Source: Desulfarculus sp.
Lineage (GTDB): Bacteria > Desulfobacterota > Desulfarculia > Desulfarculales > Desulfarculaceae
NCBI GenBank assembly: GCA_003605055.1
Contig: QZKP01000012.1
Location: 1 to 64,000, forward strand
Direction of reading: 5' to 3'
DNA: 64,000 bases
The notes beneath the pieces were generated by a model. The model was not told the origin of the DNA. It worked only from the letters and a program-made list of their open reading frames with translations, and did no database searches. This document shows, piece after piece, positions 16,771 to 19,557 of this stretch. Each line of letters starts with the position of its first letter. Within the stretch, counting starts at the first letter, position 1. The translations under genes and the position numbers were made by a program.

Positions 16771-17439
16771 ATGATCGTAGGTGACAGCAAGCCTCTGGAA
16801 GAGATTCTGGAGATGATCAAGGGCCGGGACAAGGTCCTGGTGCTGGGTTGCCGGGGCTGCGTGACCGTGTGCAACGTGGGCGGCGAGAAGGAGGTGGGCA
16901 TCCTGGCCACCGCTCTGCGCATCGCCCGCAAGAAGGCCGGCCAGCCGCCCACCGTGGACGGGATGACCCTGGAGCGGCAGTGCGACCCCGAGTACATCGA
17001 GGAGCTGGCCGAGGTGGCCGGGGACTACGACGCCATCATCTCCATCGCCTGCGGGGTGGGGCCCCAGTTCGTGGCCGAGCGCTACCCCGAGGCCGCGGTG
17101 TTCCCGGGCATCAACACCACCTTCATCGGCGGGGCCCTGGAGCACGGAGTCTGGGCCGAGCGCTGCCAGAGCTGCGGCAACTGCCTGGTGCACAACTTCG
17201 GCGGGCTCTGCCCCATCGCCCGCTGCAGCAAAAGCCTGATGAACGGCCCCTGCGGGGGCTCGGCCAAGGGCAACTGCGAGATCAGCCCGGAGGTGCCCTG
17301 CGTGTGGCACCAGATCGTGGAAAAGATGGAGAAGATGGGCCGCCTGCAGGAGCTGGAAAAGGTCTGGCCGAACAAGAACTGGCTGACCTCCCGCGACGGC
17401 GGTCCGCGCAAGAGAGTGAGGGAGGACCTTAAGCAATGA
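16771..17439 (+). CDS. metV: MetV, iron-sulfur partner of methylene-THF reductase
   Basis: A 222-residue protein of the MTHFR C-terminal zinc/iron-sulfur family. It shows CRGCVTVC (about residues 27-34), CxxCxxC around CQSCGNCLVHNFGGLCPIARC (132-152) and NGPCGGSAKGNCE (about 159-171). In acetogens MetV forms a core with MetF and carries electrons from an Hdr-type module to the MetF flavin. ATG 16771 has AGAGGAAGGAAG upstream. It overlaps metF by 4 nt (ATGA), so the two are coupled. Confidence 0.92.
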   Translation: MIVGDSKPLEEILEMIKGRDKVLVLGCRGCVTVCNVGGEKEVGILATALRIARKKAGQPPTVDGMTLERQCDPEYIEELAEVAGDYDAIISIACGVGPQFVAERYPEAAVFPGINTTFIGGALEHGVWAERCQSCGNCLVHNFGGLCPIARCSKSLMNGPCGGSAKGNCEISPEVPCVWHQIVEKMEKMGRLQELEKVWPNKNWLTSRDGGPRKRVREDLKQ

Positions 17440-18362
17440 AAGCCGGTAGCAATCTGGAGAAGGTGCTGTCTGCGGGCCACTTCGCGGTCACCGGCGAGCT
17501 GGGTCCGCCCCAAGGCAACAAGGCCGAGGAGGTGCGCCACAAGGCCGCCCACCTCAAGGGCATCGTGGAGTCGGTCAACATCACCGACAACCAGACCGCC
17601 GTGGTGCGCATGTCCTCCTGGGCCGCCTGCAAAATTCTCCTGGAGGAGGGGCTGGAGCCCAACTACCAGATGGTCTGCCGCGACCGCAACCGCCTGGCCC
17701 TGATGAGCGACATCCTGGGCGCCACGGCCCTGGGCATCAAGAACGTACTCTGCCTCTCCGGCGACCACCAGCGCTTTGGCAGCCATCCCGAGTCCAAGAA
17801 CGTCTACGACCTGGACTCCCTGCAGCTCCTGGCCGCCTTCAAGAAGATGCGCGACGAGAAGAAGTTCCTCAACGACAAGGACCTGGAGGGCGCCCCGGAG
17901 ATATTCATCGGCGCCGCCGCCAACCCCTTCGCCGACCCCTTCAGCTTCCGGGTCACCCGCCTGGCCAAGAAGATCGCCGCCGGCGCGGACTTCGTGCAGA
18001 CCCAGTGCATCTACAACATGGACAAGTTCCGCGAGTACATGAAGCAGGCGGTGGACCGGGGCCTGCACGAGAAGGTCTATATCCTGGCCGGCGTCACGCC
18101 CATGAAGTCCGTGGGTATGGCCAACTACATGGCCAAGTTCGTGCCGGGCATGGACGTGCCCGAGGCCGTCATCAAGCGCCTCAAGGGCGTGGACAAGAAG
18201 GACCAGGCCAAAGAAGGCATCAAGATGGCCATCGAGCAGATAGAGGAGTTCAAGGAGATGAAGGGCATCAGCGGCGTGCACGTCATGGCCATCGAGTGGG
18301 AGCACCGGGCCCGGGAGATCATCGAGGGCGCCGGCCTGCTGCCCCGGCCCCAGGTGGACTAG
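17436..18362 (+). CDS. metF: Methylenetetrahydrofolate reductase
   Basis: A 308-residue TIM-barrel flavoprotein interconverting 5,10-methylene-THF and 5-methyl-THF. Typical segments are FAVTGELGPP near the N-terminus, VKSVNITDNQ-like VESVNITDNQTAVVRMS (about 43-59), LCLSGDH (106-112) and DFVQTQCIYNMDKF (about 186-199). It lacks a C-terminal regulatory domain and an NADH site of its own, as in MetVF systems where Hdr-type subunits deliver electrons. The ATGA overlap with metV and the shared operon with hdrA and mvhD support this. Confidence 0.95.
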   Translation: MKAGSNLEKVLSAGHFAVTGELGPPQGNKAEEVRHKAAHLKGIVESVNITDNQTAVVRMSSWAACKILLEEGLEPNYQMVCRDRNRLALMSDILGATALGIKNVLCLSGDHQRFGSHPESKNVYDLDSLQLLAAFKKMRDEKKFLNDKDLEGAPEIFIGAAANPFADPFSFRVTRLAKKIAAGADFVQTQCIYNMDKFREYMKQAVDRGLHEKVYILAGVTPMKSVGMANYMAKFVPGMDVPEAVIKRLKGVDKKDQAKEGIKMAIEQIEEFKEMKGISGVHVMAIEWEHRAREIIEGAGLLPRPQVD

Positions 18363-18507: not shown

Positions 18508-18554
18508 ATCTTCGGCCCGCCGCCACCCCCGCCGCTCCCCGCGCCCAATAAAAT

Positions 18555-18587
18555 GCGGCCCCGGGGGCGTGGCGTCCCCGGGGCCGC
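18555..18587 (-). terminator. Minus-strand terminator facing the metF terminators
   Basis: Perfect 12-bp stem GCGGCCCCGGGG / CCCCGGGGCCGC with a 9-nt loop. On the minus strand it is followed by ATTTTATT, so it would stop leftward transcripts that read past the riboswitch terminator before they reach metF antisense. Confidence 0.65.
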
Positions 18588-18665
18588 GGGTTCCCCCATG
18601 AGGGCTGGCCCGAGCCCTCACTGGCAGGGGAAGGAGCCGTGTTCCACGGGCCAGGGAGGGCAAAG

Positions 18666-18692
18666 AAAAACCCCAGCCCGAAGGGACTGGGG
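18666..18692 (-). terminator. Intrinsic terminator of the cobalamin riboswitch RNA
   Basis: On the minus strand CCCCAG-TCCC-TTC-GGG-CTGGGG (6+3 bp with a bulged T) is followed by TTTTTC. It lies about 110 nt downstream of the B12 box and is a likely expression-platform or simple end of the RNA. Confidence 0.75.
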
Positions 18693-18800
18693 GATTGCAC
18701 CCTGCTTCTTCATCTCCCAGGGGGACCCGCGGGGGCCGGGGCCGTCACCTGGGGTGCGGACCGCGGCGCCGGTGTCTCGCCGGCCATCGGGTCTCAAGGA

Positions 18801-18963
18801 GGCGGCAGGTCTTCTGGCTCCCGGATCGTCCTACCGGCCGCGCCTTCCCATCCTCGCGGACAGTGGCTATCAGCGGCTTTCGTCCCCGGTTACAGCGGCG
18901 GGACCGCGACGGCTTCGCACCGTCTTCCCTCATAGGCCCGGTCGGGCGCCGTCTCCCGTATGT
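18801..18963 (-). ncRNA. Cobalamin (B12) riboswitch, orphan
   Basis: Read on the minus strand, the conserved parts occur in order: GGGAAG (near 18931), GGTGCGAAGCCGTC (the variable-arm opening), GCGGTCCCGCC, CTGTAACCGGGGACGAAAGCC-type core (given here as CTGTAACCGGGG then ACGAAAGCC), GCCACTG, GGGAAGGC, and the B12 box AGCCAGAAGACCTGCC (18804-18819). It has its own upstream promoter and a downstream terminator. No open frame of reasonable quality follows: the next gene leftward is metF on the opposite strand. Normally such elements precede B12 synthesis or uptake genes; here it may act as a free-standing or antisense regulatory RNA, or be a relic of a lost gene. Confidence 0.93.
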
Positions 18964-18969
18964 AGGCTC

Positions 18970-18998
18970 TACATACTACGGCCGCGGCCGCGGGTCAA
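18970..18998 (-). promoter_or_regulatory. Candidate promoter of the riboswitch RNA
   Basis: Minus-strand TTGACC, 17 bp, TATGTA. The expected start, about 18963, coincides with the 5' end of the aptamer, so the riboswitch is probably transcribed on its own and not from mntP. A dyad GTATGTAG / CTACATAC (18958-18976) overlaps the -10 region and could be an operator. Confidence 0.55.
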
Positions 18999-19011: not shown

Positions 19012-19557
19012 TCAGGCCAGGACCAGCTTCAGGGCCACGCCCATGAGGACCAGACCGCCGATCAGCCCCAGGCGCCGTCCCAGGCGGCTGGGCAGCAGGC
19101 CGGCCAGCTTCATGGCCGCCAGGGTCATGCCCGCGGCCACGACGCCGATGACCATTGCCGGCAGCAGCACCTCCTGGCCCACCAGGCCCAGGGAGGCGCC
19201 CACGCCCAGGGCGTCTATGCTGGTGGCCAGGGAGAGCGCCGCCAGGGACCAGCCCTTGGTGGGGTCCAGGCGGGCGGCCCGGGCCTGGGCCGGGCCCAGG
19301 CTGTCGGTGATCATCTTGCCGCCGATGAACAGGAGCAGGGCGAAGGCGATCCAAGGCGCGTAGTCCCGGGCGAAGATTGACAGCCGGCCGCCCAGCCACC
19401 AGCCGGCCAGGGGCATGACGAACTGAAAGAGGCCGAAGTGAAAGGAGAGCCGGAACACCTGGCGCGGGGCGCGGTGCACCGCCCCCACGGCCAGGCCCAC
19501 GGCAAAGGCGTCGCAGCCCAGGGCCACGGCCAGGGCCAGCACCTCCAGCAGGGGCAT
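19012..19557 (-). CDS. mntP: Manganese efflux pump MntP
   Basis: A 181-residue inner-membrane exporter with six predicted helices. The two family Asp sites are visible in the paired repeats LGCDAFAVGLAVG (helix 1) and TSIDALGVGASLG (helix 4). It starts at ATG 19557-19555, five bases after the stop of the metallophosphoesterase gene, and ends the leftward operon 20-23 kb. No yybP-ykoY manganese riboswitch is seen before it. Confidence 0.92.
   Translation of the reverse strand: MPLLEVLALAVALGCDAFAVGLAVGAVHRAPRQVFRLSFHFGLFQFVMPLAGWWLGGRLSIFARDYAPWIAFALLLFIGGKMITDSLGPAQARAARLDPTKGWSLAALSLATSIDALGVGASLGLVGQEVLLPAMVIGVVAAGMTLAAMKLAGLLPSRLGRRLGLIGGLVLMGVALKLVLA

Follow-up and report, generated by a model that had tools for sequence, protein, structure and literature searches.

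A free-standing cobalamin riboswitch with a conserved non-coding 3' domain, very probably a regulatory RNA, in Desulfarculaceae

The window analysed here, a 64,000-nucleotide stretch of Desulfarculus sp. contig QZKP01000012.1, carries on its minus strand, between mntP and metF, a cobalamin riboswitch that is followed not by a gene but by a conserved non-coding 3' domain with a terminator of its own. The same unit recurs in five species of a single family, and on this ground we judge it, from sequence, to be very probably a B12-controlled regulatory RNA rather than what remains of a lost gene. The locus is likely, in our view, to be a gene standing on its own whose product is a riboswitch-controlled RNA; this RNA would act in trans, be switched at its first terminator (T1), and work most plausibly by pairing with Shine-Dalgarno sequences.

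Organization of the unit

The order on the minus strand of the window is mntP, the TTGACC element, a weak -10, the aptamer, T1, a 24-nt linker, a 47-nt domain, and the second terminator (T2). The features are as follows.

19012-19557, minus: mntP (putative manganese efflux pump; PF02659), co-directional upstream neighbour, outside the unit
18993-18998, minus: TTGACC, -35 element of the promoter belonging to the RNA itself, from sequence; TTGAC occupies this position in each of the five copies
18970-18975, minus: -10-like TATGTA, weak (3 of 6 consensus positions), spaced 17 nt from the -35
18787-18968, minus: cobalamin aptamer RF00174, full length (1-189), 116.7 bits, E 1.4e-28
18804-18818, minus: B12 box GCCAGAAGACCTGCC, intact, from sequence
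18768-18785, minus: P13-type hairpin GGCCGGCGAGACACCGGC 3' of the aptamer, from sequence and named by analogy
18716-18720, minus: CUGGG, candidate antiterminator arm, able to pair with CCCAG of T1
18662-18692, minus: intrinsic terminator T1 (expression platform), stem 18692-18671, CCCCAGTCCCTTCGGGCTGGGG-TTTTTCTTT, hairpin -17.9 kcal/mol
18638-18661, minus: variable linker from T1 to the 3' domain, length and sequence not conserved
18591-18637, minus: conserved 3' domain, GCUCCUUCCCC, hairpin, GGGGGAA; 47 nt, models R1 to R3, with covariation
18606-18613, minus: octaloop UCGGGCCA, GGGCC invariant in all five copies
18547-18587, minus: intrinsic terminator T2, the unit's 3' end; hairpin and T run in all five copies
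17436-18362, plus: metF (MTHFR; PF02219), convergent neighbour, outside the unit
16771-17439: gene for an MTHFR C-terminal domain (PF12225), adjoining metF

A first-pass annotation of this region, made from the sequence without database searches, had described a complete B12 aptamer with its B12 box and an intrinsic terminator behind it, and both descriptions hold: the aptamer scores far above the RF00174 gathering score of 31.5 bits, and T1 stands where the terminator was placed. The second terminator that it put at 18555-18587 is T2 (stem 18587-18555, -32.9 kcal/mol; -23 to -33 kcal/mol over the copies). It was also right that metF adjoins on the other strand, about 185 nt beyond the unit's end as measured to the metF stop codon, and that no plausible gene precedes it; mntP went unnamed there. 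Between T1 and metF there is no plausible or conserved reading frame, the T1-T2 interval of about 80 nt is non-coding, and no co-directional gene lies 3' of T2, so that the transcription unit ends at its own terminator without a coding gene. The riboswitch had been bounded at 18666-18998 and the sequence behind it treated as a gap with nothing in it; the T1-T2 domain found there, mostly outside those bounds, is the conserved cargo.

The promoter proposed earlier, TTGACC-17-TATGTA, stands in part. TTGAC precedes the aptamer in every copy; TATGTA is weak and was not reported by the promoter scan, and its counterparts are TAAGAT in G010 and TATAAA in G019. A perfect 8-bp inverted repeat, GTATGTAG-AGC-CTACATAC, spans the -10 and the start of the aptamer at 18958-18976 and could be an operator; it is not seen in G010.

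Five copies in the family

RF00174 was searched in 20 Desulfarculaceae genomes and the DNA behind the matches was read. Most matches precede a co-directional gene; five do not, and those five share further structure, with the order TTGAC promoter, aptamer, T1, 3' domain, T2, and convergent gene in every case. Besides the window, they come from one congener (G010) and three other genera. The copies and their flanking genes (upstream / facing) are:

G000 (window): mntP / metF
G010 (congener), C402:13227-13409: mntP / 2-hydroxyacid dehydrogenase of a phosphonate-transport-like cluster
G019, C45:17945-18193: smpB / glutamate-synthase-like gene
G001, C1:426420-426607: endonuclease/phosphatase family / protein without a Pfam match
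G011, C11:80922-81110: TPP-dependent oxidoreductase / iron-dependent-repressor-family protein

The search of related genomes that the first-pass annotation had recommended, for promoter, aptamer and terminator conserved with no gene downstream, thus finds all three kept in five species. Between G000 and G010 the homologous segment starts at the promoter and stops at the end of T2. Of the genus's eight genomes six lack the unit, and in five congeners (G004, G005, G007, G008, G009) metF and mntP face each other with no trace of it between them. On a tree of metF and acsC the five unit-bearing genomes are scattered, so the unit was probably present in the family ancestor and lost several times, or has moved; a tree of 92 aptamers does not resolve, and the five copies are not grouped in it as one clade.

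The ordinary RF00174 riboswitches of the family have the same aptamer and the same type of platform (GGGTGCA-TCCCCC, then a terminator), but a co-directional gene follows and the 3' domain and T2 are missing, for example before TonB-receptor-like genes. The genes behind them, classed by resemblance of their translations, are TonB-receptor-like, periplasmic-binding-protein-like, cobyrinate-synthase-like, ThiC-like, or encode small membrane proteins. Several riboswitch loci of the family have features of their own. Tandem cobalamin riboswitches, one of terminator type and then one near the start codon, precede a TonB-receptor-like gene in the window's genome (L061, G000 C25:8877-8405), with counterparts in G004, G005, G007, G008, G009, and G010. 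L102 (G019 C49) and L339 (G003 C10) are riboswitches with a conserved small membrane protein, about 70 aa long, encoded behind them. In L345 (G015 C32:5883-6066; genome 54% complete) a cobalamin riboswitch and terminator are met after about 280 nt by a convergent gene, and the 3' domain is missing. L074 (G004 C1:2706737-2706932, minus) is a riboswitch relic that keeps its aptamer, with terminator and gene gone and convergent reading frames behind; in G005 and G009 the counterpart riboswitches stand before a ThiC-like gene.

The conserved 3' domain

Downstream of T1, after a linker that ranges from about 20 to 65 nt and shows no conservation across the copies, lies a domain composed of a pyrimidine-rich CUCCU(U/C)CC strand and of outer and inner stems with an octaloop NNGGGCCN, followed by T2. 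All six pairs of the inner stem are changed on both sides in compensatory fashion, and 96.7% of cells are paired; none of 500 shuffles reaches the observed covariation, and slid partners pair at 53% at most.

Models were built from two (R1), three (R2), and five (R3) copies. R1, searched against 63 genomes, recovered the G019 copy (E 2.5e-10). With filters off, the best sites of R2 were the G001 copy (34.6 bits) and the G011 copy (23.8 bits), in the right place and on the right strand, this being a ranking within their own loci, which had been picked by eye; neither the R1 nor the R2 result is circular. R3, over 80 genomes, scored the five copies at 41.8-57.1 bits and the next site at 26.4 bits, a ranking that is partly circular since its top five are the model's own source sequences. 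A phylum-wide search with R2 matched, apart from the window, only G+C-rich terminators, and a scan of named genomes anchored on mntP gave no new copy by R1 in the 35 of 80 loci searched. No Rfam 15 family matches the domain at its gathering score, the only matches being sub-threshold ones by E-value, and neither Rfam 15 nor the open-access literature searched yielded an earlier description of this RNA.

Predicted switching and mode of action

In all five copies CUGGG, CCCAG, and the 3' arm of T1 follow in the same order, the T1 3' arm being CUGGG, or CCGGGG in G019. This order permits either the antiterminator or T1 and never both, and from these mutually exclusive pairings we predict that B12 governs the length of the transcript. 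Transcription would start at the TTGAC promoter just behind mntP. With cobalamin plentiful, the bound aptamer would let T1 form, giving an RNA of about 300 nt; with cobalamin scarce, the CCCAG arm of T1 would pair with the upstream CUGGG, and read-through to T2 would give an RNA of about 410 nt that carries the conserved 3' domain. That the domain would be made at low B12 is suggested by analogy with two Listeria RNAs, Rli55 and AspocR, in which B12 leads to early termination and the long RNA arises in its absence (PMC8079631). In Gram-negative species, cobalamin riboswitches with a transcriptional mode of action have been documented (PMC12121620).

The 3' domain would then act in trans. Its CUCCU..CCC strand is complementary to Shine-Dalgarno sequences, and the likeliest mode would be pairing with the Shine-Dalgarno regions of mRNAs that serve a purpose only while B12 is available. 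Hfq was not found in eight genomes of the family, which makes base pairing a less typical mechanism here, though a possible one.

Targets were sought as perfect complements, GGGAAGGAGN{2,9}ATG, and no specific signal emerged. In the RNA-bearing genomes, corrinoid proteins, named by resemblance, make up 4 of about 22 plausible genes (acsC twice, acsD, and an MtaC-like gene), and GGGAAGGAG-ATG sites include acsC. The acsC candidate failed the comparative test: its site recurs in the RNA-less genomes G002, G003, G007, G008, G012, G016, and G017, acsC of the RNA-bearing G019 lacks it, and the anti-Shine-Dalgarno match to acsC occurs just as often in species that do not have the RNA. These sites are accordingly no evidence for a target. 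A bolder form of the proposal, namely a new Hfq-independent family of trans-acting RNAs in Desulfarculaceae that at low B12 blocks translation of corrinoid-dependent proteins through their Shine-Dalgarno sequences (for example AcsC/AcsD, the corrinoid iron-sulfur protein of the Wood-Ljungdahl pathway), is in our judgement doubtful.

Two observations concern the corrinoid protein genes themselves. The start regions of acsC (L244-L258) keep a strong Shine-Dalgarno sequence, GGGAAGGAG, across much of the family, whether the RNA is present or not. In G011 a cobalamin riboswitch (L338, C28:4550-4776) lies directly 5' of a gene resembling acsD, for the small subunit of CFeSP; in Desulfarculaceae, then, a B12 riboswitch seems to control even a corrinoid protein.

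Comparison with known systems

The nearest precedents for the unit are EutX/Rli55 and AspocR, from which it differs in the 3' domain. EutX of Enterococcus faecalis and Rli55 of Listeria monocytogenes have a free-standing B12 riboswitch that yields, with B12, a short form ending at the riboswitch and, without it, a longer non-coding RNA with a conserved 3' element (PMC8079631). The Desulfarculaceae unit is likewise a free-standing B12 riboswitch with a conserved non-coding 3' element, and its predicted lengths of about 300 and 410 nt compare with about 200 and 450 nt for Rli55. It belongs to another phylum, however, has no eut operon nearby, and in place of the dual hexaloop ANTAR site (A1, G4) has one hairpin with the NNGGGCCN loop plus the CUCCU strand; with that site absent and A at position 1 in two of the five copies, the unit does not look like a EutX/Rli55 homologue. 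AspocR of L. monocytogenes is a non-coding RNA that a B12 riboswitch controls by premature termination (PMC8079631), but it is a 1,400-nt antisense to pocR, whereas the RNA described here is a short one that stops at T2 and faces no conserved gene on the other strand; the reading as an AspocR-type antisense RNA was rejected.

Alternative readings

A less likely reading, to be taken seriously all the same, keeps the B12-controlled RNA and has its 3' domain sequester a protein through the GGGCC-loop hairpin, with no mRNA pairing, much as EutX/Rli55 sequesters the ANTAR protein EutV. The best-conserved part of the domain is indeed a hairpin with a compensatory stem and a fixed loop, as is typical of a protein site, and pairing of the outer loop bases (U-A in G000 and G019, U-G in G011) would reduce the loop to a hexaloop, NGGGCC, whose fourth base is G. 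In EutV, G4 is the sole base-specific contact with the ANTAR hexaloop (PMC8934654). ANTAR sites also have A at position 1, however, which only two of the five copies have; there is no second conserved hexaloop downstream and no eut operon adjacent.

The remaining readings fare worse. That the unit is a relic, a B12 riboswitch drifting after deletion of its gene, as the first-pass annotation had offered as its alternative, is improbable: true relics exist in the genus, but the one at G004 C1:2706737 has no terminator, whereas promoter, switching arms, T1, covarying 3' domain, and T2 have all been kept in five copies from four genera, and the variable linker shows drift where the region is free to drift. 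Slightly less probable still is a small peptide or protein encoded between T1 and T2 under ordinary riboswitch control; small genes do follow some B12 riboswitches of the family (G019 C49, G003 C10), but the copies have no reading frame in common, their linkers differ in length from about 20 to about 65 nt and their start codons are not shared, and conservation tracks base pairs rather than codons. Least credible is an antisense regulator of the convergent neighbour, proposed earlier for the metF 3' end and akin to AspocR on pocR, for although the window's unit is directed towards metF and a transcript running past T2 would enter that gene's 3' end, T2 is very strong, the unit stops well before the metF stop codon is reached, and no two of the five species have the same facing gene.

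Since the facing gene differs among species, the tie to the corrinoid-linked metF operon, to which significance had been attached, is most likely an accident of position. The initial interpretation therefore keeps its B12-sensing non-coding RNA, now in five conserved copies, and loses both the relic and the antisense regulator.

Significance

A riboswitch without a gene is not necessarily a relic. The B12-riboswitch-controlled non-coding RNAs that we found described are all from Firmicutes (Enterococcus and Listeria), and a conserved example in Desulfobacterota with an unrelated 3' domain would mean that the wiring of a riboswitch to a non-coding RNA arose more than once. The unit offers a directly testable B12 circuit in organisms with a carbon metabolism that depends on corrinoid proteins.
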